From a virus: DNA of 22,398 nucleotides. The notes beneath the pieces were generated by a model. It was not told where the DNA came from. It searched no databases and worked only from the letters and a program-made list of their open reading frames with translations. Positions 1 through 22,255 of this stretch are shown piece by piece. The position numbers were made by a program, and so were the translations under genes. The stretch lies in the IMG/VR virus record IMGVR_UViG_3300042402_000268, positions 1 to 22,398 of that record, one strand, 5' to 3'. How positions within the stretch are numbered: position 1 is the stretch's first letter; every line of letters starts with the position of its first letter.

Positions 1-143
1 CGATGCATACGTTCGCTGCCCTTGCTGAAACAATAGGCAGCAAATACCACAAATATACTATACGGAATGCCTGGAGTAATAACTCCAATGTAGGCCATGC
101 CTAGGCTGAGAAATCCTAAAATGTTCCAGAATAATTTTTTCAT
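1..143 (-). CDS. YbaN/DUF454-family inner-membrane protein (C-terminus beyond window)
   Basis: The first 47 codons are present and the rest lies outside the window. The protein begins MKKLFWNILGFLSLGMAYIG and continues with a TPGIP turn and a second hydrophobic stretch ending CFSKGSERMH. This matches the layout of the bacterial YbaN/DUF454 family: two short hydrophobic helices around a P-x-x-P-type turn, then a C-F/A-R/K-x-S-x-R-x-H segment. The family is an integral membrane protein of unknown function. Its ATG overlaps the TGA of the PAAR-M15 gene (ATGA), so it is probably translated by coupling at the end of that structural transcript. A host-like membrane protein next to a spike-tip gene is odd. 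It may alter the membrane, but that is a guess. Confidence 0.6.
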   Translation of the reverse strand, partial: MKKLFWNILGFLSLGMAYIGVITPGIPYSIFVVFAAYCFSKGSERMH

Positions 144-1114
144 ACTAGTTGTACCAGTCCTTGACCATAGGTCTTATCATTTAGCAAAGTCAACACCTGT
201 TTTCTTTGTTGATCTTTAGCAAAGCTGACGTGTATCCAGGGCAATCCCGAGCCAGTTGTTTTGTATTCTAATAGCAATTGATCGTAACTGACATTGTCTC
301 TAATCCACAAAGCTATATCATAGTAATCACTTTTTGCAACACCTCTAAATTGAATATCTGCTGCCTGTCCTTTTGGATGTTGACTTTTTGGATTACTGCC
401 AGGAGGACGCCAAGTGTTAGTAACAAATGCACCAGAATATTTGGCTCGAATAGGTTCTATACAGTTGACCGCCAACAATTTTAAATTACAACAAATTTCT
501 TCAACACTAAGACCACCAGCGGGCGCTCTAAGAGAGTTGTCAAATACCACATGAGGTTTTCTAGTTAATTTTCCCACAGTGTAAGTTGCAGTTAACTGTA
601 TGCCGTCAATGGCATCTCCGGTGGGGAAGGGAGTTATGCTGGCAATGTCCGAGCAGTCTTTTGACAAAGCTGCTGGCGACTTAGGCGGCGCTGTATCTTC
701 AGCTTTTTTATCAACCTTGGCTTCTAATTCAGTTTTGTCTATACTAGGCTTGCTGGCAACAAAAGCAGCACCCGAGCCAGGAACATCAGCATCGTCATCG
801 TCGCCTTCGTTCATATCTCTGTTTGCGGGAGTATCAGTATCAACTTCGTCACCTGCAAATACGTCACCGCTACCTGTGGCAAAATGCCCGCAGGTTGCAG
901 AATCCCCAGCCCTTACTGTAGGTATATTGTTTGTAAATACAGATTGACTGCCTTCGGCCATAGTTGGCCCGCGATGGGCACCACGGCCGTGTCCAGCAAC
1001 AGCATCTCCTAATCTTACCGTAGGGTCATTATTGGTAAAGACATCGCCGGAGCCTTGTATCAGTGCTCCGCCGGCAATGTCTGTTCCTGCATCTCTTGAT
1101 ACCCCAGCAGTCAT
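140..1114 (-). CDS. PAAR-repeat spike-tip protein fused to an M15-type peptidase
   Basis: 324 residues. The N-terminal ~90 residues carry PAAR-like repeats: two VFTNN-x-PTVR-x-GD units (near residues 25-37 and 59-71) and a third GSGDVFAGD (81-89). PAAR domains cap the tail spike of contractile machines. An acidic, Ala/Pro-rich linker follows (about 90-155). The C-terminal part has the M15 D-Ala-D-Ala carboxypeptidase/endopeptidase signature: SQHPKGQAAD with His246 and Asp253, Glu283, and WIH with His295, the expected zinc and catalytic set. Inference: the tip pierces the outer membrane and the peptidase cuts peptidoglycan cross-bridges, doing the job T4 gives to gp5 lysozyme. It starts 1 nt after the stop of the 107-aa gene, in the same late transcript. 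Whether it cleaves peptide or only binds cannot be told from sequence. Confidence 0.85.
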   Translation of the reverse strand: MTAGVSRDAGTDIAGGALIQGSGDVFTNNDPTVRLGDAVAGHGRGAHRGPTMAEGSQSVFTNNIPTVRAGDSATCGHFATGSGDVFAGDEVDTDTPANRDMNEGDDDDADVPGSGAAFVASKPSIDKTELEAKVDKKAEDTAPPKSPAALSKDCSDIASITPFPTGDAIDGIQLTATYTVGKLTRKPHVVFDNSLRAPAGGLSVEEICCNLKLLAVNCIEPIRAKYSGAFVTNTWRPPGSNPKSQHPKGQAADIQFRGVAKSDYYDIALWIRDNVSYDQLLLEYKTTGSGLPWIHVSFAKDQQRKQVLTLLNDKTYGQGLVQLV

Positions 1115-1765: not shown

Positions 1766-2017
1766 TTAGTATCCGGTGCCGTTAAACCCGGTTTCGTCAA
1801 TGTATTTTTTTAATTCTGTAAAGCCACCAATCGCATTGCCATTGATGATAATTTGTGGAACTGTTCGAGCATTTGGTACTGCTTCTAACAATTCTTCTTT
1901 AGTGTATCCGTCACCAATTTTATGTTCTTTAAACGGAATTCTACGATCTTTTAACAGGGCCTTGGCCTGATCACAATAGGGGCAGTTGTACTTGCTCCAT
2001 ATAATAACTGGGTTCAT
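1766..2017 (-). CDS. Glutaredoxin
   Basis: 83 residues, the usual length of a single-domain dithiol glutaredoxin. The active site is CPYC at residues 12-15 after a first beta strand (PVIIWSKYN). The cis-Pro motif TVPQI and the glutathione-binding GG (IGGFTEL) follow in the right order. It would use glutathione to reduce the C-terminal CxxC of NrdA after each catalytic cycle, the job nrdC does in T4. It lies in the nrd transcript behind nrdB and a 55-aa gene, with an AAGGAAAC ribosome site. Family assignment is secure; electron transfer to NrdA is inferred from the operon. Confidence 0.93.
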   Translation of the reverse strand: MNPVIIWSKYNCPYCDQAKALLKDRRIPFKEHKIGDGYTKEELLEAVPNARTVPQIIINGNAIGGFTELKKYIDETGFNGTGY

Positions 2018-2027
2018 TTTGTTTCCT

Positions 2028-2195
2028 TTAATTTGAATATACTATTGATCCTTTCGAGTCAGTGACTCTGACTAGAATTGATCCTTTATTTTTCTTAAAA
2101 AGAGCTGCCTGGATAGCAGCAGCTTCGGTACCATATGTTCCTAGGGTAGACCAGGATTCGTATGGACTTTTATTTTTAAATTGTACTTTAAACAT
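2028..2195 (-). CDS. 55-aa conserved-looking small protein in the nrd operon
   Basis: A 55-codon gene whose ATG overlaps the nrdB TAA by one base (TAATG), with CCGGAG upstream as Shine-Dalgarno. The protein runs MFKVQFKNKSPYESW through GTYGTEAAAIQAAL to KGSILVRVTDSKGSIVYSN. The pattern is beta strand, aromatic turn, short amphipathic helix (TEAAAIQAAL), then two strands, a plausible alpha+beta mini-domain in which the helix indexes paired residues. No family could be named. Tight coupling to nrdB and glutaredoxin on both sides suggests a role with the reductase or simple genome compaction. It is supported by reading frame, coupling and ribosome site rather than homology. Confidence 0.75.
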   Translation of the reverse strand: MFKVQFKNKSPYESWSTLGTYGTEAAAIQAALFKKNKGSILVRVTDSKGSIVYSN

Positions 2196-3298
2196 TATAA
2201 CTCCGGAAGGTCCGCATAGTCAATGCCTTCGCCCATAACTCCAATGACATAATTGGTTGATTCGTTTTCTTGTAAGGCAGTTTGTTTCTTGCTGGTATCG
2301 GTATGCTTGTTGAACCAAGGAATTGGTGTTGACTTAGGAGCACTTGCTTGATACTTAATGCCAATTTGCTTTAGTGCATCTAGTGCAGTGTAGTCCACAA
2401 AGTCACGCAGAATGTTTGCATTGAGTCCGATAACTGGACCCAGTTTAAACAAATAGGTAGCCCACTCTTTTTCTTCACGAATAACATCCATATACATTTG
2501 ATAGACTTCTGCCTGGCAGGTGTCTCGAGCTTCAACAAATCTTGGATCCTCTTTAACCACTTGATTGATCAAGAAAGCAGTCCAACCCTTGTGTAACAAT
2601 TCGTCTTGTAGGATCAAGCTGATGATGTTGCCATTGCCAATAAAGATCTTGTTCTCAACCATTGCAAGACTAGTAGCAAATGACACCATAAAGCGGAAGG
2701 CTTCTAGTGCGTAGCTGGCATTAAGGGCTAACCAAATTGCTCTTATATGATCTTTTTCTTGAACTGAATCAGGATTGATTTCTTTCTGACAGTTTACTTG
2801 ATGTAATAGATCGTAATACTTGCCTACACTACTAGCCATGCCTACAATCTCAGCGGTGTCGTGTATGGTATTAAAAACTTCTTTAGGTACGTTATATATA
2901 TTTCGAATGATATGACTGTAAGATTTACTATGAATATTTGTTTCATAAAAAGTCCAGTTATAAACTAATGCTTCTAGTTCTGGCAGACTGATCACTGGTG
3001 TAAAAATCTGACTTGGTCCACGGCCTTGCAAACTGTCCAATGCTGTTTGACGTAGCAGGTTTGATGTAAAGATATGCTTGACCGCATCGCTGGCGTCTTT
3101 AAAGTCGTTGGCATCTTTTGAAAGGCTGATCTCTTCTGGTTGCCAAAAGAAACCACGTGCAGTTGCTTCAAAGTCTGCAATCTTTTTATATTTTACTTCT
3201 TCAAAGCGTTGGATAGTAACTGGGCCTGCTGGATCTAAAAACATCTTACGATTTAGATAGTCTGTCTTGGTGTGTAAGTTGTATTGTTGTTTTGACAT
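2195..3298 (-). CDS. nrdB: Ribonucleoside-diphosphate reductase class Ia, beta (radical) subunit
   Basis: 367 residues from the ATG at 3298. The open frame reaches a TTG at 3319, but the ATG is 1 nt after the aldolase stop and has AGGAAAA spaced upstream, so it was chosen. NrdB holds the di-iron tyrosyl radical and forms dNDPs with NrdA. The expected ligands are visible: Asp88 (LDSLQGR), Glu119 and His123, Glu199 (ALEAFRF), Glu233 and His236 (QDELLH). The radical Tyr127 sits in HSKSYSH, and a C-terminal Tyr in ESTNYVIG is the likely radical-transfer residue. One oddity: the first helix reads E-T-N-I-H, three residues between Glu and His, where E. coli NrdB has E-T-I-H. The Tyr keeps its spacing from the His. 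Confidence 0.95.
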   Translation of the reverse strand: MSKQQYNLHTKTDYLNRKMFLDPAGPVTIQRFEEVKYKKIADFEATARGFFWQPEEISLSKDANDFKDASDAVKHIFTSNLLRQTALDSLQGRGPSQIFTPVISLPELEALVYNWTFYETNIHSKSYSHIIRNIYNVPKEVFNTIHDTAEIVGMASSVGKYYDLLHQVNCQKEINPDSVQEKDHIRAIWLALNASYALEAFRFMVSFATSLAMVENKIFIGNGNIISLILQDELLHKGWTAFLINQVVKEDPRFVEARDTCQAEVYQMYMDVIREEKEWATYLFKLGPVIGLNANILRDFVDYTALDALKQIGIKYQASAPKSTPIPWFNKHTDTSKKQTALQENESTNYVIGVMGEGIDYADLPEL

Positions 3299-3299
3299 T

Positions 3300-3956
3300 T
3301 TAATATTTTCCTGATGCAAGTACTATCTTGCAAATGTGTTCTAATCTTTCTATGTGCTCATAGGCACGCCACGGACTAGTATCGATTGCTACAACACCAT
3401 GTCCTTTGATGCCCAAAATGTCGTAGGCAATGTTACCATAATCATCTAACTGTAAATTCTTGTGGCACTGGTCAGCAAGTTCTTGACTGATTGGCGGCAC
3501 ATCGCCCACATTAGGTGCTACCTTGGTATAGCGATTCAATTCTGGAAATGCTGCACTTACGGTACTCAAATCAATACCGGCATGCATTGCCGCAATACAG
3601 TAGGTAGGATGAACGTGTACTACTACACGAACTTCACCTGCGTGTTGTCCCATCTCACGTTGTAATCCGAAATGTAAAGGAAGTTCGCCACTAGGCTTTA
3701 GATTAGCACTAATGTCAGTGTAAGGCAAATCGCGCCAATTGTAAGCATAGATGCCTGTGCCGTGTCCACTGTTTATAGTTCTATCAATACTAATCTTCTT
3801 AAACTGATCAGGTTGCAGTGTTTGTTTACGCACACCACTAGGTGTAATGTAAAAGTGATCACGGTCGTGATGACGAATTGAAACATTGCCATCACGACTG
3901 GTAATCCAGTTACGCTTGTAAGCGTCGGTCATTATATCACATATGGTTTCTAACAT
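3300..3956 (-). CDS. Class II aldolase/adducin-family protein
   Basis: 218 residues, typical of fuculose-phosphate aldolase, ribulose-phosphate epimerase and methylthioribulose-phosphate dehydratase relatives. Family motifs in order: GNVSIR (24-29), ITPSGV (37-42), PSGELPLH with Glu91, HVHPT with His114 and His116, and KGHGVVAI with His185. These are the catalytic Glu and three-His zinc site. The substrate cannot be read from the sequence; a small phosphorylated sugar is likely. The start ATG overlaps the nrdA stop (TAATG) and nrdB follows 1 nt after its stop, so it is translated as part of the reductase operon. That position is unusual and points to a role in nucleotide or pentose metabolism during infection. 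Confidence 0.85.
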   Translation of the reverse strand: MLETICDIMTDAYKRNWITSRDGNVSIRHHDRDHFYITPSGVRKQTLQPDQFKKISIDRTINSGHGTGIYAYNWRDLPYTDISANLKPSGELPLHFGLQREMGQHAGEVRVVVHVHPTYCIAAMHAGIDLSTVSAAFPELNRYTKVAPNVGDVPPISQELADQCHKNLQLDDYGNIAYDILGIKGHGVVAIDTSPWRAYEHIERLEHICKIVLASGKY

Positions 3957-6295
3957 TATAATTTACAGCTTTCGCAATCTTCTTCAATACTTGTTTCGAC
4001 TTCACGTTCATTGTGAAACCCATTGTAGTGTACTTCTGGTGTTGGCTCTGCCGAGGCCTTGCTGCCTGCTTTGTTAATTAGACTGTAGTAGAATGTCTTC
4101 AATCCCCACAAGTGAGCCTGCATTAAATTCTTAGCAATTAGTGTTGTAGGCACTCTGCGATCAGCCCAGTGTGCTGGGTTGTAGAACGTGTTAGTTGAGA
4201 TGCTTTGATCAACATAAACTGCTAGTACAGCCGCAGTTTTTAAGTAGCCGTCACAGTCTTTTTGTTCCCACATCAACTGATACTTGTTCTTCAATCTGTT
4301 GTACTCTGGAACTACCTGCGTAAAACTACCTGCCTTACTTTCCTTAGTGCTAATCAGGCTCATAGGCATTTCAATACCGTTGGTTGAATTAATTACAACA
4401 CTTGAGCTTTCTACTGGAGCAATGGCCATTAGTGTGGCATTGCGAACACCATACTGTTTCATATTGGATCGCAGTGTTTCCCAATCTAGTTCTGGAGCAA
4501 AGTCTGCTAGTTCATTCACACCTTTGGCTCGAAGCTCCCATGGGAAAGTACCTTGACCGTAGCGTGTTTTGTCTGAATGCACACAAGCACCACGTTCTTT
4601 GGCCAACTCCACTGTGGCTTCTGTCAAGTAGTAGGCTTGGTGCTCCATCCAACTCTTGACTTCCTGTAAGGCATCCTTCTCGCCGTACTTCAGGCTGCGT
4701 TTGGCATGCCAGTAGGCCAAATTAGTAACACCAATGCCTAGTGGCTGTATCTCGTCGTTACTCAGCTTGCTCTGTATCGACAAGAAGTCTTGATAGTCAA
4801 GAATGTTACACAGGCTACGCTGTAGAATCCTACAGGCTCTACGCATATCCTCTGGATTACGGAACGATCCCCAGTTAATAGATCCCAGTGTACATAACGC
4901 TATGCGGCCATCAGCGTCATCTAATCTTTTAAATGAACGTGTGGGTAATAGGATCTCACAGCACAAGTTACTTTGATAAATCGTATGATACTCGGGATCA
5001 AAAGGTCCTTGGTTCATTACATTATCAATGAACACGAGATATATTCGACCCGTGTCTGTGCGTTCTTTTAGTATACCACTCTTGAACACTTCTTCAGCAC
5101 TCATGGTTTTTTTTCTTAAACCCTGTTGCTTTTCATATTTTATGTAAAGCTCTTCGAACAGTTCTGTGTTCTTATAGAAAGCTTCGTATAGGTCTGGCAC
5201 TTCGTTGGGATCAAAGAATGTTATTTGTTCTTTGTTTTTGAATCGTCTCCAGAAGAAAGCACTAAGCACAACCCCATAATCCATATGACGGACTCGGGTT
5301 TCTTCTGTTCCTTGATTGTTTTTAAGAACAATAAGATCATCAAACTGAAGATGCCAAATAGGATAGAATACAGTAGCACTTGCATTACGAATACCTCCCT
5401 GCGAACATGATCGCAAATCGCCGAACCATTTTTTCAGGAAAGGTATCATACCTGTGTGCATAATCTCACCACCTCTGATGGGACTACCCAATGGACGTAG
5501 ACGTCCTATCTCCAAACCAATGCCAGCACGTTTGCTAGCATACTTGGCCATCATTTCGCCACTAGCAAAAATGGAGTCAAGATCATCATCACTGCGAATG
5601 AGCACACAACTAGAGAACTGCTTAGTGGGTGTGCCAAGCCCAGCAAGAACAGGAGTAGCGAGAGTAAATAGACCGTCTGAAGCCGCATTGTAATATTCCT
5701 TAATGTAACGCATACGAGCCGCATTGGGCTCTTCTTTGTGGAACACAGTGGCCGCGGCCACCATGTATCTAATCTGAGGGGTTTCGTAAGTTTGTTTAGT
5801 CGCTCTATTCTTGACCAGATACTTTTCGATCAGTTGTTCAATGGCAGCATAGGAATAACCTTCGTCCTTGGTATGATCGATCATATCTTGCATCTTGTTC
5901 CAATCATCTTCCGAGTACCACGTTAATAGATCGGGTGTATATAGACCAGTTGCTACATTCTTTTTAACAATTTCGTAAAGGTGGGGAGGATCATAACTAC
6001 CATACACATCCTTCCTAAGCATGCTCAAACGCTGTTTGCCTGCTACATATTGATAATTGATATTGCCCACATCAGGGTTTGATTCAACATCAATAAGATC
6101 CACGATTGCTCGTAGAGTAATACCGTCTACTTCTCTAGTGGTAATGCCGTCATAAAAATGAGGCTGTGCCTTGATCTCAATCATTGATTGACTGACATCG
6201 GCGATTCCTGAACAAATCTTAGCGACCTGTGCCTGCCATTTTTCTATGGTTAGTGACTCTTTGTTTCCGTTTCTTTTTATTACTGTAATGGTCAT
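3956..6295 (-). CDS. nrdA: Ribonucleoside-diphosphate reductase class Ia, alpha (catalytic) subunit
   Basis: 779 residues, full length for NrdA. An ATP-cone occupies the N-terminus (VIKRNGNKE at about 5-13 to roughly residue 100), so dATP feedback is possible. The catalytic core has Cys230 (FSSCVLI), Asn443-Cys445-Glu447 (SNLCCEI) with Cys445 as the thiyl radical site, and Cys468 (ALCTLGS), the redox partner of Cys230. Tyr736-Tyr737 (TFYYSL) are the radical-transfer pair. The tail ends CESCKL with Cys774 and Cys777, reloaded by glutaredoxin. A CAGGA Shine-Dalgarno site sits in the 15-nt leader predicted from a late-type promoter at 6316-6323. In T4 this gene is early, so a late-type signal here is noteworthy. 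Confidence 0.97.
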   Translation of the reverse strand: MTITVIKRNGNKESLTIEKWQAQVAKICSGIADVSQSMIEIKAQPHFYDGITTREVDGITLRAIVDLIDVESNPDVGNINYQYVAGKQRLSMLRKDVYGSYDPPHLYEIVKKNVATGLYTPDLLTWYSEDDWNKMQDMIDHTKDEGYSYAAIEQLIEKYLVKNRATKQTYETPQIRYMVAAATVFHKEEPNAARMRYIKEYYNAASDGLFTLATPVLAGLGTPTKQFSSCVLIRSDDDLDSIFASGEMMAKYASKRAGIGLEIGRLRPLGSPIRGGEIMHTGMIPFLKKWFGDLRSCSQGGIRNASATVFYPIWHLQFDDLIVLKNNQGTEETRVRHMDYGVVLSAFFWRRFKNKEQITFFDPNEVPDLYEAFYKNTELFEELYIKYEKQQGLRKKTMSAEEVFKSGILKERTDTGRIYLVFIDNVMNQGPFDPEYHTIYQSNLCCEILLPTRSFKRLDDADGRIALCTLGSINWGSFRNPEDMRRACRILQRSLCNILDYQDFLSIQSKLSNDEIQPLGIGVTNLAYWHAKRSLKYGEKDALQEVKSWMEHQAYYLTEATVELAKERGACVHSDKTRYGQGTFPWELRAKGVNELADFAPELDWETLRSNMKQYGVRNATLMAIAPVESSSVVINSTNGIEMPMSLISTKESKAGSFTQVVPEYNRLKNKYQLMWEQKDCDGYLKTAAVLAVYVDQSISTNTFYNPAHWADRRVPTTLIAKNLMQAHLWGLKTFYYSLINKAGSKASAEPTPEVHYNGFHNEREVETSIEEDCESCKL

Positions 6296-8343: not shown

Positions 8344-9039
8344 TTACCGGCCTGTTGTATAGTATTCTTCAACCTTGTTCAGCCACATATCCTGATATTT
8401 GTTGAAATTATCAGGCGTTAGATCAAACTGTTGATATTGTAGATCTCTACTGCACATAAAGATCACACCACGTTTCATATCAGTGCCGTAGACTTCATTA
8501 TGTGCTAATATATAGGCCATCAGTTGTAGGTAGTAATCTTCCACCCATTCTGCTTTCTTGGGCTTGTTGGTCTGTTTGTGATCGCAGATTGCAGGCTGTC
8601 CTTGATAGACTCCAACTAGATCAGTAGTTCCACTATATAAGCCGGGATAGTACAGGCTTTGTTCCATAGCCCATACTTCGTCTAATTTATTCAATCCGTT
8701 TTCAATGATAACATCGGCCATTTTGTTTGCCTGAACGTGTACTGGATTATTGCCAGGTTGGCGTTGTTCACCAATTAAAAAACGTTCTAGGTTGGCATGC
8801 ATGGCTGTGCCTACTCCAGCAGCTTCTGTGGTGATTTGTTGGGCTTTGGCGTGTCCAATTCTATCCCGCCATTCGTTCAAATGTGTCATATCCTTGGTAG
8901 CTGACAGTATGGTTGTCACACTAGGAAGGCTTTCACCGTCGGGTGTTAGATACACTCGCTTGCGTGTAACAGGATCGTTGATCTGTTTACAGTTTTTGTA
9001 TTGGATGCGTTCAATGAACGGAGGAGGTAATATATTCAT
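8344..9039 (-). CDS. PD-(D/E)XK (RecB-like) exonuclease-fold protein
   Basis: 231 residues. Motifs of the RecB/Cas4-like nuclease family are in order: SVTTILS (40-46), GTAMH with His81, GTTD with Asp140, DHK with Asp153 and Lys155, and QLMAY (Gln172 to Tyr176). His81, Asp140, Asp153 and Lys155 would form the metal-dependent active site. It probably processes DNA ends in replication, recombination or host-DNA breakdown. It has a near-consensus sigma70 promoter (TTGACA, 17 bases, TAATAT) inside the end of the upstream gene, so it is likely early. The predicted start lies 1 nt before the ATG and there is no Shine-Dalgarno site, so the mRNA would be leaderless. Confidence 0.85.
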   Translation of the reverse strand: MNILPPPFIERIQYKNCKQINDPVTRKRVYLTPDGESLPSVTTILSATKDMTHLNEWRDRIGHAKAQQITTEAAGVGTAMHANLERFLIGEQRQPGNNPVHVQANKMADVIIENGLNKLDEVWAMEQSLYYPGLYSGTTDLVGVYQGQPAICDHKQTNKPKKAEWVEDYYLQLMAYILAHNEVYGTDMKRGVIFMCSRDLQYQQFDLTPDNFNKYQDMWLNKVEEYYTTGR

Positions 9040-13141: not shown

Positions 13142-14239
13142 TTAATCGGCTCTAAATGGGGTCCAACGATCACGTGGTACCAGTTTTGAACCGCCTGCAA
13201 CATAGCCTTCGCCGCCAGGTTTGCCACCAGTGCTTTGTTCTATGTCGCCGCTTGCTGCATCTAACTCACGAATCACTTCGTCTTTAGCCGCCATAATTTC
13301 AAGCACCAGCTCAAACATCTTGTCCATTACTCCTGGATGCTGTTCACTGTGTGCCTGTATCTTGGCTGCTTTTGCAGGAGTCTTTTGCACAAAAGTCATA
13401 AAGGCTTCTGTGTTGATGTTGTCTAATTGTTTAGCTTTTGACTGATTATTAACAAAGGTGTAAATTTCTGTTTGTAAATAGCCCATTCCGGGAACTGGTG
13501 CTAACATTTTTTCAATTGCTGATTGATATTTGGCTAGAGTTTCTATTTTTGCAAGATTGTCTGCCCCCACAGCAGGCCTATAGCTAACACTGGTCAAGCC
13601 AAATACTGCTAATTCCGGGTTGGCTGAGAATTGCTCAGGATTGTCAAAGTCCTCTCCACTTTTGTCTCCAAAGTAACCAAACACCTTGTGTGCCGCTACA
13701 GCTACTTTAGCCTTGATCAATTTCTGATAGTAGGGGCTTTTGACCTTAACACCGTAGGTGGTTTGATTAGGAGTAAATGTAATTTTGCCATCTGCACCTT
13801 CGTAGGGCCTACCTGGATGGAATAAGATGTCGCCGTAGACATAGCCGCGAAAGTCTGCAGGCGTTGCCTTTTCAAATATGGGCCACAGAGCTGCCATATC
13901 CCCAGCAAACTTAGGACGCCAGTCTTCGCCTTTGCCGCGACTCATAATAAACTTTTCTAGTTCTTCTGGACTGTTGCTTTTGCCTTCTTCACGACCCCAG
14001 TTGTTTTTGCCCACCATACGGAAGGTGCCATCATCTTCACGACCCCAGTATACTGTAGGGTTGCCGTCCCACTTGATGGTAATCTTAGTTTCAGGACTGG
14101 CTAGATCTTTTAGAATCTTAATTGCTTTATTAGCACCGTTGGCTTCTGCAAACACTAGATCTTCTAGGTGATTAAATTCACGGCCCACCTTCTTGGGGGC
14201 TGGAGCTTCAGCTTCGGTTAGGAATTCAAATGCTCTCAT
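13142..14239 (-). CDS. DUF6267-like protein with nucleotidyltransferase/ligase-type KxDG motif
   Basis: 365 residues. The segment ITIKWDGNPTVYWGR has K56-x-D58-G59, like motif I of ATP-dependent DNA/RNA ligases, where the Lys takes AMP. GYVYGDILF (132-140, Asp137) resembles motif III/IIIa, and TYGVKVKS (161-168) resembles motif V with paired lysines. This order, plus ITFTPNQTTYGV, matches phage proteins grouped as DUF6267 as far as I recall. Ligation or adenylylation is not shown. The start MRAFEFLTEA fits a T4-like capsid-targeting peptide with an L-T-E cleavage site. It is coupled by ATGA to a Pol-beta-type nucleotidyltransferase. Confidence 0.75.
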   Translation of the reverse strand: MRAFEFLTEAEAPAPKKVGREFNHLEDLVFAEANGANKAIKILKDLASPETKITIKWDGNPTVYWGREDDGTFRMVGKNNWGREEGKSNSPEELEKFIMSRGKGEDWRPKFAGDMAALWPIFEKATPADFRGYVYGDILFHPGRPYEGADGKITFTPNQTTYGVKVKSPYYQKLIKAKVAVAAHKVFGYFGDKSGEDFDNPEQFSANPELAVFGLTSVSYRPAVGADNLAKIETLAKYQSAIEKMLAPVPGMGYLQTEIYTFVNNQSKAKQLDNINTEAFMTFVQKTPAKAAKIQAHSEQHPGVMDKMFELVLEIMAAKDEVIRELDAASGDIEQSTGGKPGGEGYVAGGSKLVPRDRWTPFRAD

Positions 14240-15054
14240 TTAATCTTTTCCATCATTTTACGGAACCAGGCAGGTGTTCCTGTCATGGCACTTTCAAACG
14301 AAATTATGTTTTCTGGTAGAGTAATGCCTTGCTTGCCCAATGTTTCTCTAGCGCCTGCAACTAGTTCTTCATAGTTAGGCAACTTCTTGATGTAGTTAAG
14401 AATTGCATCAACTGATTTAATATCTTTAACTGTGGCAGTTTGCCCTAGCAGAACTTTGGCAATTTGATTCCAGTCGTTGCCATTTGGCAGTAGCTCATCT
14501 GTAGTAGCATTTAGTATTCCGTGTTTGGGACTGTATTTGATACCGCGGGCACGAGCAATTGAACTTAGCACAATGTGGCGATGCTCGCCGCGATATTCAC
14601 CTTGTCCACCAATCATGCTGCCCTGCTGGAATTTGGGATTAGCTGAAAACATAAAGTCAGCCTGTACAAATCCATTACTTGGATCACCGTTGATAGGAGT
14701 TTTCCAATGCACATTGTCTCCGCTGAGTTTGACATTTTCTTTGCCAAACTGTGCAATCAGCTTGTCAGCAAAGGCTCGTTTGTCTACTTCATTGGCATCT
14801 ACTGAGAGATCTAGATCTCCGGAACTGTTGCGTTCAAATGTGCCATCTGGATCTTCTTTACGTCCAGTTGTACCTAACCATTTAACAGGTTTCTTGTCAT
14901 CTAGATCTTTTTCTTTGGTAAAGTCTAGGCCTGTAATTTTTTCAATATAGGCTACTGTGCCTTCAACGTCGCCGGTTGCAATGCGTTGTGTTAGTGGTTT
15001 TTTATCGGCATCTTTGAATACATTGCCGCCTTCAAATAGATTACTCATTGTCAT
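14236..15054 (-). CDS. Pol-beta-type nucleotidyltransferase-fold protein
   Basis: 272 residues. The SSGDLDLSVD segment places Asp80 and Asp82 as the first two carboxylates of a minimal nucleotidyltransferase, and FVQADFMF gives Asp133 as the third. A helix before it (WLGTTGRKEDPDG) stands where the usual GS motif sits. A C-terminal helical part (DIKSVDAILNYIKKLPNYEE) follows. The substrate is unknown. Start choice: ATG at 15054 or 15048; both overlap the 95-aa gene, and AGAAG favours the first. It is coupled to the ligase-like gene downstream, so the two probably act on the same molecule, perhaps nucleic-acid ends. Confidence 0.75.
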   Translation of the reverse strand: MTMSNLFEGGNVFKDADKKPLTQRIATGDVEGTVAYIEKITGLDFTKEKDLDDKKPVKWLGTTGRKEDPDGTFERNSSGDLDLSVDANEVDKRAFADKLIAQFGKENVKLSGDNVHWKTPINGDPSNGFVQADFMFSANPKFQQGSMIGGQGEYRGEHRHIVLSSIARARGIKYSPKHGILNATTDELLPNGNDWNQIAKVLLGQTATVKDIKSVDAILNYIKKLPNYEELVAGARETLGKQGITLPENIISFESAMTGTPAWFRKMMEKIK

Positions 15055-15328
15055 TGGATTCTTCTAGTTTTCTTTTGGCTTTACGTGATTCTGCAATTCT
15101 TCGCACACCACGGGTAAATTTGCTAGGATCTTGCCCTTTGATAGCATTGATGAGACGGCGTTCTAGCTCGTCAGCACTTTCAGCATCATAGTGCTTGTGT
15201 ATGCTTTCCAGCAGATTAATAGCGGAATTAATGATGTTAGTAGCACGGCTTTCGATCAGTGAATCCGTGTTACGTACTTCGGCAATTTCATTAAGTTCCT
15301 GCAGAATCGATCTGGTTCGAAGTTTCAT
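15041..15328 (-). CDS. 95-aa helical phage protein
   Basis: 95 residues, almost all helical and charged (MKLRTRSILQELNEIAEVRN, NIINSAINLLESIHKHY, DELERRLINAIKGQDPSKF, a basic KAKRKLEE tail). It appears to be a small conserved T4-like phage protein of unknown role. The N-terminus contains L-N-E, which could be a prohead-protease site. A late promoter (15347-15354) gives a 13-nt leader with AGGAAAT. It heads the transcript for the nucleotidyltransferase and ligase-like genes and overlaps the former by 14 bases, so it may be their accessory. Confidence 0.72.
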   Translation of the reverse strand: MKLRTRSILQELNEIAEVRNTDSLIESRATNIINSAINLLESIHKHYDAESADELERRLINAIKGQDPSKFTRGVRRIAESRKAKRKLEESNDNE

Positions 15329-15346
15329 AAATTATTTCCTATCGTG

Positions 15347-15354
15347 TATTTAAC
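15347..15354 (-). promoter_or_regulatory. Late-type promoter GTTAAATA
   Basis: Minus strand; predicted start 15341, leader TAGGAAATAATTT with the Shine-Dalgarno site of the 95-aa gene. Confidence 0.7.
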
Positions 15355-16762: not shown

Positions 16763-17464
16763 TTATCTAACTGTGGCTAACCTAAAGAAACGAAGTATGC
16801 AGATGTACATCCAACCTAGATCAAACTCCCACCAACGCTGACTGAACTTGGCATTGGCACCATCAGCATGATGATTGTTGTGTAGTTCTTCTCCGCCTAT
16901 CCATACAGCCCACGGAATGATGTTACGGCTGGTGTCTTTGGTATCTGTGTTGCGATATCCCCACCAGTGTGCCAGTCCGTTGACTACGCCGGCCGCAAAT
17001 AATGGAATCCATATCATTTGAATACCCCACACTAAGAATCCCCACGGTCCAAATAGCAAAAGGTCTATGACCAGCATTAAAAGAATACCCAAGCGACTGT
17101 GTGCGGAGTAAAGATTGCGTTCGATCCAATCATTAGGGCAGTCTTTGCTCAAGGAGTCAACCATGGCTGTGTCTTTGCTGGCTGAATGATAAAGCAATGC
17201 TCCGCCGAACAGCACACGCCATATGCCGTATATTTGTGGGCTGTGCGGATCACCTTCTTGATCTGAACGCTGATGATGTTTGCGATGTATTGCTACCCAT
17301 TGTTTAGTAACCATTCCTGTTGTCAGCCATAGCCAAAAACGCATAAAATGATTAACAGTAGGATGAAATTGGACAGCTCGGTGTGTTTGGCTTCTGTGCA
17401 GATATAATGTTACACAGGCTATAGTGATTTGGACCATCACTAAGGTCATTAATATAATATCCAT
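16763..17464 (-). CDS. Fatty acid desaturase (acyl-CoA/acyl-lipid delta-9 type)
   Basis: 233 residues. All three His boxes of the membrane di-iron desaturases are present: HRSQTH (23-28), HRKHH (60-64) and HNNHH (195-199). The extra family His lies in NGLAHWWGYRN (His166). Hydrophobic segments lie at about 1-20, 39-52, 125-160 and 183-190, shorter than many bacterial relatives but with the core intact. It would insert a double bond in acyl chains at the inner membrane. The late-type promoter CCTAAATA predicts a 1-nt leader and there is no Shine-Dalgarno site. It is divergent from the HAD gene. Very likely host-derived cargo. Confidence 0.93.
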   Translation of the reverse strand: MDIILMTLVMVQITIACVTLYLHRSQTHRAVQFHPTVNHFMRFWLWLTTGMVTKQWVAIHRKHHQRSDQEGDPHSPQIYGIWRVLFGGALLYHSASKDTAMVDSLSKDCPNDWIERNLYSAHSRLGILLMLVIDLLLFGPWGFLVWGIQMIWIPLFAAGVVNGLAHWWGYRNTDTKDTSRNIIPWAVWIGGEELHNNHHADGANAKFSQRWWEFDLGWMYICILRFFRLATVR

Positions 17465-17516: not shown

Positions 17517-18116
17517 ATGAAAAACAAACTGATACTTACAGACGCTGACGGTGTTCTGCTGGATTGGGAATGGGCATTCTCAGTTTGGATGCAAGAACGC
17601 GGTTACACACTGACAGCGGATAACAAGAAAAGCTACTATCTACATCATCACTATAATGAGCTAGAAGAAAAAGACTCTAAAAAAGTTGTAAAGACTTTTA
17701 ACGAGTCAGCAGCCATTGGCTTCCTTCCAGCACTGCGTGATAGTGCTCACTATGTTAAAAGACTGCACGAAGAACATGGTTACGAATTCCGTGTTATTAC
17801 AAGTCTAAGCCTAGACAAGAACGCAGGTAAACTGCGTGAAATGAATTTGCGCAAGTTGTTTGGCAATGCAATTGAAACGGTCATCTGTCTAGATACAGGG
17901 GCAGATAAAGATTCTGCATTGGCTCCGTATAAAGATAGTGGTATGTGGTGGATTGAAGACAAGCCGCAGAATGCAGATGTTGGATACGCACTAGGACTGC
18001 GTTCAATCCTTATCGAACACGGACATAATATGCATCACAAATGCAACTATCCCGTAGTTAAGAACTGGAGTGAACTATATAACCTAATTCTAACTCCAGT
18101 ATCTACTGTTGTCTAA
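17517..18116 (+). CDS. HAD-superfamily phosphatase
   Basis: 199 residues. Motif I is LTDADGVLLDW with the nucleophile Asp9 and Asp11. Motif II is VITSLS (Thr95/Ser96), Lys131 is a candidate motif III residue, and WWIEDKPQNAD holds the motif IV acids (Glu147, Asp148). A helical cap lies between motifs I and II. This layout matches small HAD phosphatases of T4-like phages related to 5'-nucleotidases and polynucleotide 3'-phosphatases, so a nucleotide or nucleic-acid 3' phosphate is a plausible substrate. An exact-consensus sigma70 promoter ends right at the ATG, so expression is probably early and leaderless. Its last 27 bases overlap the end of the opposing glycosyltransferase gene. Confidence 0.83.
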   Translation: MKNKLILTDADGVLLDWEWAFSVWMQERGYTLTADNKKSYYLHHHYNELEEKDSKKVVKTFNESAAIGFLPALRDSAHYVKRLHEEHGYEFRVITSLSLDKNAGKLREMNLRKLFGNAIETVICLDTGADKDSALAPYKDSGMWWIEDKPQNADVGYALGLRSILIEHGHNMHHKCNYPVVKNWSELYNLILTPVSTVV

Positions 18117-18809
18117 CTTGTCCCAGTAGGCTTGGTTGTTGCGATTGACAAAGTTTTTAACTAGATATTTGGCCATACCCATATAGCCCATTCGTTTGAA
18201 TCTACGGCTGTCTTGACCAAAATGATGACCAATGATTCTAAACTTTTTTGGACTGTACTTGCGGCTCAAGAAGAAGTCTTCGCTGGTTGAAAACTGTTCA
18301 GGGAAGCCACCAAACTCTTCAAAACGATCTCTGCGTGTTAACATAAAGGCTCCCACTGCAAATGGGCTAACATATTTCAATACGTGATTGATTAGATTAA
18401 ATGCGGTAAATCCGATCGTTGCTCTTAGGTCTCGATCATAGCATTTGATGTTTAATCCAATGAGGTCTAGATTCTTAGACTCAAGTGTATTAACGGCATC
18501 TCGAATAACTGTGTCTTTGAAGAAACGCACATCGGCATCTATGAATAATATGTAAGGAGTAGTAACTAGTTGTGCGCCATTGTTTTTAGCAAAAGAAACA
18601 GGCCCACCGTCTATAATTTCAACATTCAGTTCACCTTTCATTATTTCTATAACTTTCCGTGTATTATCTGTAGAACAATCAGCAATGATAATTCTAGTGT
18701 CACCTATCGATTGTCGGCGTAGGTGCATTAATAAATGCGCAATGTAGTTTTCCTCATTCTTGCAGGGTACTACTATAGTAATCTTGTCACTTAGTTTTGT
18801 TTCTTGCAT
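18090..18809 (-). CDS. Family 2 glycosyltransferase (GT-A fold)
   Basis: 239 residues. The Rossmann-like N-terminus ITIVVPCKNEENYI (10-23) is the GT2 nucleotide-sugar site. ADCSTDNT (43-50) and the metal-binding D91-A-D93 follow, then FSTSEDFFLS with Glu177-Asp178 as likely catalytic-base region. One hydrophobic stretch near 140-156 may touch the membrane; there is no clear TM anchor. It would transfer a sugar from a nucleotide donor to lipid, polysaccharide or protein. Its ribosome site is AAGGTGG. It follows the LpxH-like gene on the same strand, suggesting joint action on surface glycolipid. Its end overlaps the HAD gene tail to tail. Confidence 0.9.
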   Translation of the reverse strand: MQETKLSDKITIVVPCKNEENYIAHLLMHLRRQSIGDTRIIIADCSTDNTRKVIEIMKGELNVEIIDGGPVSFAKNNGAQLVTTPYILFIDADVRFFKDTVIRDAVNTLESKNLDLIGLNIKCYDRDLRATIGFTAFNLINHVLKYVSPFAVGAFMLTRRDRFEEFGGFPEQFSTSEDFFLSRKYSPKKFRIIGHHFGQDSRRFKRMGYMGMAKYLVKNFVNRNNQAYWDKLDNSRYWS

Positions 18810-18869: not shown

Positions 18870-19715
18870 TCACATTCCGTTTGAGTAGTAAATTCCAGGG
18901 TCACTCGTCCTGGTATGTCCCTTGGATTGTTTAGATGCACTGCCAGTATTATCAACACCCACATTGTCGCTCTCCTTGGTCCAAGTTACTATTTCCCAGC
19001 GACCATCGTGATGTTCTACAAGTGCTGTACAACTTTCGACCCAGTCGCCGTCGTTCATGTATACGATACCATTTATCTCTTTGATCTCTGCATGATGTAT
19101 GTGACCGCAGATCACACCGTCAAAGCCACGCTTCTTACAATACATCACTAGATTCTTTTCAAATTGAAATATAAAGTCTACTGCCTTTTTAACTCGTTGT
19201 TTGAGGTACTTAGACAAACTCCAATAACCAAATCCCATACGGTGACGTATCCAGTTAAACTTACTGTTAAGGCCAAGAATAAAATCGTAGGCCTTATCTC
19301 CTAAGAACGCAATCCACGGTGCAAGGCGAGTAATACCATCAAACAGGTCGCCGTGTGTAACTAGATAGTGTTTGGTGTCTACGCCTATGTGCTCTATTTG
19401 ATTTACGATTTCAATGTTACCAAAACCAATGCCATAAGGCATTAAGGGTCTTAGGAACTCATCATGATTGCCTGCTACATATATTACTCGTGTACCACGT
19501 TTAGCATGTCCAAGTATGCGACGAACTACATTGGTATGACTTTGCTTCCAACGCCATTTGTTTTGTTGTATGCGCCACACATCTAATATATCTCCAACGA
19601 GATAAAGTGTTTCGCAGGTATTGTGTTTGAGAAAGTTGTTGAGCTTGTCAGCTTGACTATCTCTAGTGCCAAGGTGTACATCACTAATAAAAATAGAGCG
19701 ATAAGTTTTTAGCAT
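18870..19715 (-). CDS. LpxH-like metallophosphoesterase (UDP-diacylglucosamine pyrophosphatase family)
   Basis: 281 residues. The calcineurin-like metal motifs are complete: SDVHLG (Asp12, His14), GDILD (Asp42), GNHDE (Asn83, His84), THGD (His121) and GHIHHAE (His205, His207). The spacing and VWRIQQN after motif II match the LpxH/COG2908 group that removes UMP from UDP-2,3-diacylglucosamine in lipid A synthesis. It is longer than E. coli LpxH, with a polar C-terminal tail of ~30 residues. The substrate could also be another UDP-lipid or nucleotide. The late promoter GATAAATA gives a 1-nt leader; no Shine-Dalgarno site. The glycosyltransferase follows 60 bases downstream. Confidence 0.87.
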   Translation of the reverse strand: MLKTYRSIFISDVHLGTRDSQADKLNNFLKHNTCETLYLVGDILDVWRIQQNKWRWKQSHTNVVRRILGHAKRGTRVIYVAGNHDEFLRPLMPYGIGFGNIEIVNQIEHIGVDTKHYLVTHGDLFDGITRLAPWIAFLGDKAYDFILGLNSKFNWIRHRMGFGYWSLSKYLKQRVKKAVDFIFQFEKNLVMYCKKRGFDGVICGHIHHAEIKEINGIVYMNDGDWVESCTALVEHHDGRWEIVTWTKESDNVGVDNTGSASKQSKGHTRTSDPGIYYSNGM

Positions 19716-20705: not shown

Positions 20706-21152
20706 TTAATTACACCAACTCTGTTTGGCTTCACCGTAATATTCACGAGCAAAGCCATTAGCAATTAGGGCAGCACGTAGACTTTGTCCGTTAATTAAAA
20801 GGTCGCCGAGAACACGACCACCAAATTTATCCCATCCATAGAAAGTAGCTTGAAACTTTCCCCCGGCTGCTGCGGCCTGGTTAATTGCATTTTTAGTGAA
20901 TGCCGAGGCTGCTTCTCCTCGTTGAGCTTCACTAGGACATTGGGCACGATGGCCTTTTTCTGGGGTATCAACTCCAAAGACTCTGATGGCCAACTCTGGC
21001 TTAAGCGGCTTGGGAAGAAAGGGAGCGGCGATCACAACTGTGTCGCCGTCTGTCACTCTTAAAATTTGTGCATCGTAAGTCACACCCTGTGGTGTTTTTT
21101 GTGCAAATGCTAGTACTGGTAGTGCTAACAATAGTAATAGAAACTTCTTCAT
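20706..21152 (-). CDS. Secreted thermonuclease (staphylococcal-nuclease-like)
   Basis: 148 residues. MKKFLLLLLALPVLAFAQK is a clear Sec signal peptide with AFA before the cut near residue 17. The SNase core follows: VTDGDTVVI with Asp35, IRVFGVDTPEKG with Arg57, Asp62, Thr63 and Glu65, and GGRVLGDL with Arg113, matching the calcium and catalytic set. Cys72 and Cys147 could form a disulfide, fitting the periplasm. It would degrade DNA or RNA outside the cytoplasm, for instance competitor or host DNA released at lysis. A late-type promoter (21177-21184) and AAGGAT ribosome site lie upstream, so it is made late. Confidence 0.92.
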   Translation of the reverse strand: MKKFLLLLLALPVLAFAQKTPQGVTYDAQILRVTDGDTVVIAAPFLPKPLKPELAIRVFGVDTPEKGHRAQCPSEAQRGEAASAFTKNAINQAAAAGGKFQATFYGWDKFGGRVLGDLLINGQSLRAALIANGFAREYYGEAKQSWCN

Positions 21153-21791: not shown

Positions 21792-22046
21792 CTATTTGGT
21801 TTTAACGTTTATCGCTTTACCTGATCGATTGGCGTTGGGATCTTCGCGACGCTTGCGAGCAGCGGCTTTAGCACGACCTTTCTTACCTAGACTCTGCGCC
21901 TTGCTTTTGGGCAGGCATTTAGGCTTGCCTTCTTTTTCTGATCCCCTAGCACAGTCGCCGCGGATCTTGCCGTCGGGGCCAAAGCGTACCCATTTGTCTT
22001 TGAACCACTTACGTAGATCCTCAGTGATGAACTCGTGAGCTCTCAT
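21792..22046 (-). CDS. 84-aa basic DUF5872-like protein with capsid-targeting-type N-terminus
   Basis: 84 residues from the ATG at 22046. An in-frame ATG at 22112 would add 22 residues but overlap the upstream gene by 70 bases; the ATGA junction and the MRAHEFITED start favour 22046. The body is KWVRFGPDGKIRGDCARGSE, then KPKCLPKSKAQS and a Lys/Arg-rich part (GRAKAAARKRREDPNANRSG), matching phage proteins grouped as DUF5872 from memory. Two Cys residues (CARG, CLPK) might bind metal. Its charge suggests DNA contact. MRAHEFITE resembles the T4 internal-protein targeting sequence (EFIAE) and ends in the prohead-protease pattern I-x-E. Confidence 0.78.
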   Translation of the reverse strand: MRAHEFITEDLRKWFKDKWVRFGPDGKIRGDCARGSEKEGKPKCLPKSKAQSLGKKGRAKAAARKRREDPNANRSGKAINVKTK

Positions 22047-22255
22047 TTCTTTTTGGATTCCTTGCCTTTGCGACACTGTACCAATTGTCCTGACGCATAA
22101 GCACTTGGCCATACCTTGACACGATTCTTGACCTTGTAGTAACAGGCATCTTTCTTGCCTTCATCTAGTTCGCTGGCCAACTTGATAGGACCGCCACACT
22201 CTGGGCATCCTGTTTCTATCATGTCTAGTTGTTCTAATATATCTCTAATATTCAT
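22043..22255 (-). CDS. 70-aa Cys-containing T4-like phage protein
   Basis: 70 residues. MNIRDILEQLDMIETGCPEC is followed by ELDEGKKDACYYKV and VWPSAYASGQLVQCRKGKES. The CPEC pair plus Cys at DACYYK and VQCRK make a possible small zinc site. The WPSAYASG-x-L-V-x-CRK ending is one I recall as very common in aquatic T4-like phages, function unknown. A GAGGAATTTATAA ribosome site precedes it. It is coupled by ATGA to the DUF5872-like gene; the two also share the KDACYYKV / GDCARG type of basic Cys segment, so they may form one assembly or DNA-associated unit. Confidence 0.78.
   Translation of the reverse strand: MNIRDILEQLDMIETGCPECGGPIKLASELDEGKKDACYYKVKNRVKVWPSAYASGQLVQCRKGKESKKK

Follow-up and report, generated by a model that had tools for sequence, protein, structure and literature searches.

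A candidate virion-borne end-repair pair, comprising a Pol-beta-fold nucleotidyltransferase and a DUF6267 ligase-like protein, in a phage genome fragment

Large phages encode RNA-repair sets in which the nucleotidyltransferase RlaP and an RNA ligase are predicted to restore lost nucleotides and then seal the break, in response to tRNA-cleaving defences (PMC7824862). Phage T4 carries proteins in its head: N-terminal leaders direct its internal proteins there (the first ten residues of IPIII suffice for entry), the protease gp21 cleaves after L/I-x-E, and the head injects a modifying enzyme, Alt, and an inhibitor, IPI (PMC9026906). Here we describe a locus on a 22,398-nucleotide stretch of viral DNA (IMG/VR record IMGVR_UViG_3300042402_000268, positions 1 to 22,398; "the window," itself a 22.4-kb fragment of a virus record) that encodes a 272-residue nucleotidyltransferase-like protein (p272) and a 365-residue ligase-like protein (p365). 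We hypothesize that p272 and p365 constitute a late-made, head-packaged, protease-matured and injected pair that repairs nucleic-acid ends, a reading that on balance we consider slightly more probable than its negation.

Locus and predicted enzymes

The locus consists of three genes in the order p95-p272-p365, all on the minus strand, preceded by a short promoter-like element.

15346-15353, minus strand: TTAAATAC, late-promoter-like element, ~18 nt upstream of the p95 start
15041-15328, minus strand: p95, small helical protein of 95 amino acids, first gene of the cluster
14236-15054, minus strand: p272, predicted Pol-beta-fold nucleotidyltransferase, 272 amino acids
14236-14239, minus strand: ATGA start/stop overlap of p272 and p365
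13142-14239, minus strand: p365, predicted DUF6267 ligase-like covalent nucleotidyltransferase, 365 amino acids

The three reading frames, the ATGA overlap and the preceding 95-residue gene all lie where a first-pass annotation, made from the sequence alone, had placed them; p95 and p272 further overlap by 14 nt. That annotation also put the genes under one late promoter. Co-transcription is supported, and the TTAAATAC octamer is a plausible late-promoter element for p95-p272-p365, because YTAAATAC matches occur six times in the window (2.2 expected by chance) and five of the six stand just upstream of start codons. In a PHROG profile search p95 matches phrog_11854, "virion structural protein" (E 5e-20).

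Structure prediction bore out the enzyme types first proposed, returning a Pol-beta/family-X fold for p272 and a nucleic-acid ligase fold for p365. Their predicted catalytic residues are as follows.

14809-14817, minus strand: p272 Asp80-x-Asp82, predicted metal-binding pair, invariant in 43 diverse homologues
14656-14658, minus strand: p272 Asp133, third carboxylate, invariant in the 43 and present also in the PA5oct, Phosso, Atu_ph07 and Lak proteins
14063-14074, minus strand: p365 motif I, Lys56-Trp-Asp-Gly, predicted adenylylated lysine, invariant (36/36)
13829-13834, minus strand: p365 Gly136-Asp137, motif III-like, D137 in 36/36 and G136 in 31/36
13199-13210, minus strand: p365 motif IV, Glu344-Gly-Tyr-Val, E and G in 35/36
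13184-13186, minus strand: p365 motif V lysine, Lys352 (K352-L-V-x-R356), 35/36

The first-pass annotation had named D80, D82 and D133 of p272 and the K-x-D-G and GDIL motifs of p365. All stand at these positions, with Asp80, Asp82 and Lys56 conserved across homologues. Its assignment of VKVKS (residues 164–168) as a further ligase motif, here considered as a candidate motif V, did not survive alignment (K165 is lysine in 11 of 36 sequences and K167 in 3); the real motifs IV and V are those tabulated above.

The AlphaFold2 model of p272, built on the 43-sequence alignment, has a predicted local distance difference test (pLDDT) score of 87.8, with residues 1–9 alone below 50. Its top 50 Foldseek matches in the PDB are DNA polymerases lambda, beta and mu plus one cyclic-dinucleotide synthase (best match E 1.2e-3, prob 1.0), and VIA-align against the PDB gave Z 9.4 over 184 residues (root-mean-square deviation 4.2). 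With a palm fold, a G-S/T motif, D-x-D and a third carboxylate, p272 is by its predicted structure a Pol-beta-fold nucleotidyltransferase, and its signature GS/T..SGD-h-D is similar to the Pol beta one. The 43 family sequences share the motif L-G-T/S-T-G-K/R ... S-G-D-L-D ... V-Q-x-D-x-M-F. They were chosen partly by SGD-h-D (through a regular expression and search patterns), which makes the conservation of that part partly circular; D133, G61, G64 and Q131 were not demanded by that expression, and G-D-h-D is present also in PA5oct and at loci L150 and L152, all outside the selection rule. The p272 core is common to the jumbo phages Phosso, Atu_ph07 and PA5oct and to the Lak-A2 megaphage.

Searched singly and through the 43 diverse relatives, p272 matched no Pfam or PHROG family, and neither single sequences nor profiles drew more than chance matches from the PDB; both folds derive from structure prediction. 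A pattern scan of 84,980 cellular genomes returned 93 matches and no true relative of p272, though distant relatives can escape such a scan. An identity as RlaP was considered and rejected: none of the 43 aligned members matched PF10127 at E 0.5, and in four long related records (G001–G004) PF10127 gave no match while controls did. Lak-A2 and Atu_ph07 each encode RlaP separately, in addition to a p272 relative.

p365 matches the Pfam family DUF6267 (PF19782; E 2.7e-16, 60.3 bits against a cut-off of 27), as do all 36 of its aligned relatives; Pfam gives the family no function, and we found no mention of it among open papers. Neither p365 nor its relatives matched PF09414 RNA_ligase or any other Rnl profile, and tblastn of p365 against cultured phages returned nothing at 1e-5 and only cyanophage DUF6267 proteins at looser limits. 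The first 32 PDB matches that Foldseek returned for its AlphaFold2 model (pLDDT 87.6) are without exception RNA or DNA ligases, with a Palaeococcus RNA ligase and fungal Trl1 at the head and the African swine fever virus ligase AsfvLIG among the DNA ligases (best match E 4.6e-3, prob 0.77). All 50 VIA-align rows are likewise ligases, with a Naegleria RNA ligase at the top (Z 6.9 over 176 residues). The modest scores probably reflect a ~100-residue helical insert between the catalytic motifs; we nonetheless assign a ligase fold because the match lists are uniformly ligases. On the model, p365 has the catalytic fold and motifs I, III, IV and V of a ligase-type covalent nucleotidyltransferase. 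Its E344-G-Y-V aligns with EGVV..K of the Phosso, Atu_ph07 and PA5oct ligases, a weak match (E 4e-4, prob 35%) confined to the IV–V region. In the predicted structure the chain stops 13 residues past K352, with one helix there, and lacks the C-terminal oligonucleotide/oligosaccharide-binding (OB) domain and motif VI of DNA ligases.

Gene pairing, leaders and surroundings

The p272/p365 pair recurs across hundreds of contigs, well beyond chance; its co-occurrence, like the capsid-targeting N-terminus and co-transcription, is supported more strongly than the first-pass annotation had claimed. Among close relatives of p272 with enough flanking sequence, 114 of 117 are adjacent to a DUF6267 gene. 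A nucleotidyltransferase profile scan added 80 distant loci (26–44% identity to the Phosso protein); in the 58 with enough downstream sequence, DUF6267 is adjacent in 38, fused in 10 and neither in 10 (i.e., 48/58 adjacent or fused). The association is old and widespread. At most distant loci, including those of Phosso, Atu_ph07 and PA5oct, the nucleotidyltransferase has a p95 homologue upstream. Fusions take several forms: nucleotidyltransferase-DUF6267 (~600 amino acids), HIGH-nucleotidyltransferase-DUF6267 (780–835 amino acids), nucleotidyltransferase-DUF6267-HIGH (L171) and DUF6267-nucleotidyltransferase (L181). The nucleotidyltransferase gene has another partner in Phosso, Atu_ph07 and L152, where it overlaps a different K-L/V-D-G ligase gene, whose product in L152 and Atu_ph07 matches PF09414 RNA_ligase weakly and below the cut-off (E 9.5e-4 and 2e-3, respectively).

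Two further nucleotidyltransferase-like families were seen beside p272 relatives. A second Pol-beta-like family (G-S-T..GDIDV..VQVDF) follows them at L187:6702-7658, L226:3332-4285, L204, L206 and L219; it starts MRAKEFILE|GGWAS in L187 and M|GGWAS in L226, i.e., with a leader or Met before Gly-Gly. At L160:6300-7265, a third nucleotidyltransferase-like gene (GSLVNYNYTQYSDFDLHI, a weak NTP_transf_2 match) with an MRAKDLV start replaces DUF6267 after the p272 relative.

The first-pass annotation had noted a capsid-targeting-type N-terminus on one of the two proteins. The leader it saw is there, and both proteins carry one.

15031-15054, minus strand: p272 leader MTMSNLFE, predicted cut before GGNVF (residues 1-9 have pLDDT <50)
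14213-14239, minus strand: p365 leader MRAFEFLTE, capsid-targeting-type, predicted cut before AEAP

In 47 of 51 nucleotidyltransferase clusters the conserved Gly-Gly follows directly on a Glu, with Leu (34), Ile (9) or Val (4) two positions ahead of that Glu; the background for L/I/V/M/F two places before any Glu in the G001 proteome is 32%. The remaining four clusters (Phosso, Atu_ph07, L169 and L226) start with Met directly before GG or SG, such that loss of the methionine there would leave the mature N-terminus that a protease cut would produce in the 47. Similarly, an [LIVMF]-x-E site precedes the domain in 36 of 37 nucleotidyltransferase-linked DUF6267 proteins, vs. none of the three cyanophage ones. 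Fused proteins keep the site at their inner junctions (VITE|AARIEHPED, LFE|GMRIQHAED, LINE|GGNVF, ELTE|GGNVF), the DUF6267 junction of L231 being the one clear exception. Because an artefact of the start region would not persist inside a polyprotein, we take the leader-end and junction motifs, on this sequence pattern, as real prohead-protease sites. A gp21-type protease (PF03420) is encoded in three of the four long related records (G001, where it lies at 219326-219766, G002 and G004). Further genes of a 353-kb related record carry similar leaders, and the MRAFEFLTE-type leader is common to other proteins of the same genome. G001, G002 and G004 also encode HIGH nucleotidyltransferases with GRMNPPT-I/V-GH and leader-like starts (MKLLELFE|Q, MLLLELFE|A and MFLSQLFE|S).

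The closest approach to direct proof of virion presence, at the level of annotation, comes from the Pseudomonas phage PA5oct: its EST35_0231 is a p272 homologue (hidden Markov model E 2.7e-22) that is annotated as a structural protein on the basis of electrospray ionization tandem mass spectrometry (i.e., virion detection). The MIJ3 proteomics covers four major bands only and is uninformative for a p272-type protein.

HIGH-type nucleotidyltransferases with capsid-targeting-like, LFE-ending starts, in three related phages, were noted at G001:133582-134763 (L244:13582-14763), L264 and L266. Some DUF6267 N-termini (L046, L121, L127, L172 and L198) have a swapped basic, Cys-containing module (KWSKKYKSSINCSNPKGFSQKAHCAGRKK) between leader and enzyme, and modules of this type mostly end in a second [IV]-x-E site. 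In the window itself, 21792-22112 and 22043-22255 (both minus strand) encode small basic proteins with leader-like starts MRAHEFITEDLRKWFKDKW (at an internal ATG) and MNIRDILEQLDMIE; these are possible further head-packaged proteins.

The window probably derives from a large, T4-like freshwater phage (the freshwater origin being our inference), because close relatives of the pair sit on contigs of up to 353 and 280 kb. Other genes noted on it are these.

140-1114, minus strand: PAAR-motif protein with a long C-terminal extension, probably the tail-spike tip
1766-2017, minus strand: by sequence, glutaredoxin
2195-6295, minus strand: by sequence, ribonucleotide reductase subunits, large (779 amino acids) and small (374 amino acids)
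3300-3956: aldolase II-like protein, between the ribonucleotide reductase subunit genes
8344-9039, minus strand: weak PD-(D/E)XK nuclease match (PF12705, E 5e-5), near virion genes
16763-17464: fatty acid desaturase
18090-18809: family 2 glycosyltransferase
18870-19715: calcineurin-like phosphoesterase
20706-21152: SNase-like nuclease

Proposed role, substrate and alternatives

In the mechanism we propose, p272 and p365 would be produced late in infection, carried by their leaders into the prohead core, freed by the prohead protease and ejected with the DNA into the next host cell. There p272 would add back nucleotides lost at a damaged 3′ end and p365 would take AMP onto Lys56 and seal the mended break, with both acting in the first minutes, ahead of phage gene expression. 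The steps that draw on data are those informed by the folds, active-site residues, coupling and fusion, protease-site leaders, the protease gene in relatives and the one virion-annotated homologue. More broadly, the Pol-beta family, the DUF6267 ligase and sometimes a HIGH nucleotidyltransferase may form a virion-borne repair kit, made as precursors or as one polyprotein, loaded into the head, separated by the prohead protease and injected, that would repair defence-inflicted damage to host RNA (or phage DNA) ahead of any phage gene expression; we see the case for this wider proposal as evenly poised. The first-pass suggestion that the pair repairs or tags ends on entry stands as a hypothesis.

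RNA, e.g., cleaved tRNA, is the favoured substrate over DNA on the predicted structures, because p365 lacks an OB domain and RNA ligases lead its structural matches, because the alternative partners in L152 and Atu_ph07 weakly match RNA_ligase, and because such a role has been proposed for RlaP and RNA ligases against tRNA-cleaving defences (PMC7824862). The same observations bear on the strongest competing explanation, in which the packaged pair mends the phage's own injected DNA, with p272 acting as a minimal family-X gap-filler and p365 closing nicks as a DNA ligase. Being packaged alongside the genome speaks for a DNA substrate in cis, a repair set of small polymerase X and ligase is known from African swine fever virus, p365's match list includes DNA ligases (AsfvLIG among them), and p272 pairs a Pol beta-like signature with structural matches to polymerases lambda, beta and mu—a list inflated by the hundreds of structures of these enzymes in the PDB. 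However, p365 stops right after motif V without the OB domain, RNA ligases head its structural matches and it is the RNA_ligase family that the alternative partners match, such that we regard DNA repair as unlikely, if a credible contender.

Two other explanations seem to us improbable. The leaders might not target the capsid at all, and the enzymes might remain in the producing cell to carry out ordinary late RNA repair in the manner of RlaP/Rnl. RlaP–RNA ligase pairs are indeed common in jumbo phages (PMC7824862), and cyanophage DUF6267 proteins lack the leader; yet L/I/V-x-E at 47 of 51 N-termini and inside fusions, the recurrence of the MRAFEFLTE-type leader on further proteins of that genome and the annotation of PA5oct EST35_0231 from mass spectrometry all speak against confinement to the producing cell, and we would give this account little credence. 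It is just as doubtful that the pair modifies targets other than ends, as an injected takeover or counter-defence effector in which p272 would transfer a nucleotide to a protein of the host or to a small molecule, and p365 would be a capping-type or other covalent nucleotidyltransferase. Such an effector would have parallels in the injection of Alt and IPI by T4 (PMC9026906) and in the Pol-beta domains, predicted to modify proteins, that are known from injected polyvalent proteins (PMC5512222), and the linkage of HIGH nucleotidyltransferases to DUF6267 would agree with it, but repeated pairing with two unrelated-looking ligase families points to end joining.

Several observations also weigh against the head-packaged RNA end-repair pair that we prefer. 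EST35_0231 is distant from p272 and without a leader, and the ligase-like protein of PA5oct (EST35_0228) is not marked as virion-detected. p272's polymerase matches favour DNA, subject to the same database inflation. RNA repair sets usually include a kinase or phosphatase, and no such partner was identified here; nor does simple fill-and-seal account for the third, HIGH-type nucleotidyltransferase that in some phages is fused or linked.

Comparison with described systems

Phage RNA- and DNA-repair enzymes are generally seen as made after infection. If our proposal is correct, a ready-made pair delivered by the virion would act before translation and could counter the fastest defences, such as tRNA-cleaving nucleases. 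DUF6267, which occurs in cyanophages and in other marine and freshwater phages, also gains a predicted fold, an active site and a functional setting.

The first-pass annotation called the system possibly undescribed; RlaP with an RNA ligase is, however, a close precedent (PMC7824862), and the ligase-like protein already bears the Pfam name DUF6267. RlaP (PF10127) with Rnl1 or Rnl2, which forms RNA repair sets in bacteria as well as phages, likewise couples a Pol-beta enzyme with an ATP-dependent ligase in large phages (PMC7824862). Unlike those sets, p272 falls outside PF10127, p365 belongs to DUF6267 and is neither Rnl1 nor Rnl2, and both carry predicted capsid-targeting leaders. T4 Alt, IPI, IPII and IPIII, matured by gp21, resemble our pair in a short N-terminal leader of the M-K/R-x-x-x-E-F-x-x-E type, cut after L/I-x-E, with Alt as the precedent for an injected enzyme; the p272/p365 cargo differs in that it comprises a nucleotidyltransferase with a ligase, which are sometimes joined in a single polyprotein that has cut sites within it. 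The cyanophage DUF6267 proteins are of the same family as p365, but are leaderless and lie in the replication cluster, either alone or beside a HIGH cytidylyltransferase-like gene (in two of three phages) rather than a Pol-beta one. Like our pair, African swine fever virus polymerase X and its DNA ligase combine a small family-X-like polymerase with a ligase in a large DNA virus; that set acts on DNA and comes from other sequence families, whereas p365 lacks the OB domain and is closer to RNA ligases. Among open papers, we found none that links capsid targeting to a nucleotidyltransferase–ligase pair. Cooperation of a Pol-beta nucleotidyltransferase with a ligase (RlaP) and the injection of enzymes packaged in the head (T4 Alt) are already known; what appears to be new, judging from sequence, is the proposed delivery of such a pair by the virion and a non-RlaP nucleotidyltransferase family missing from Pfam and PHROGs.

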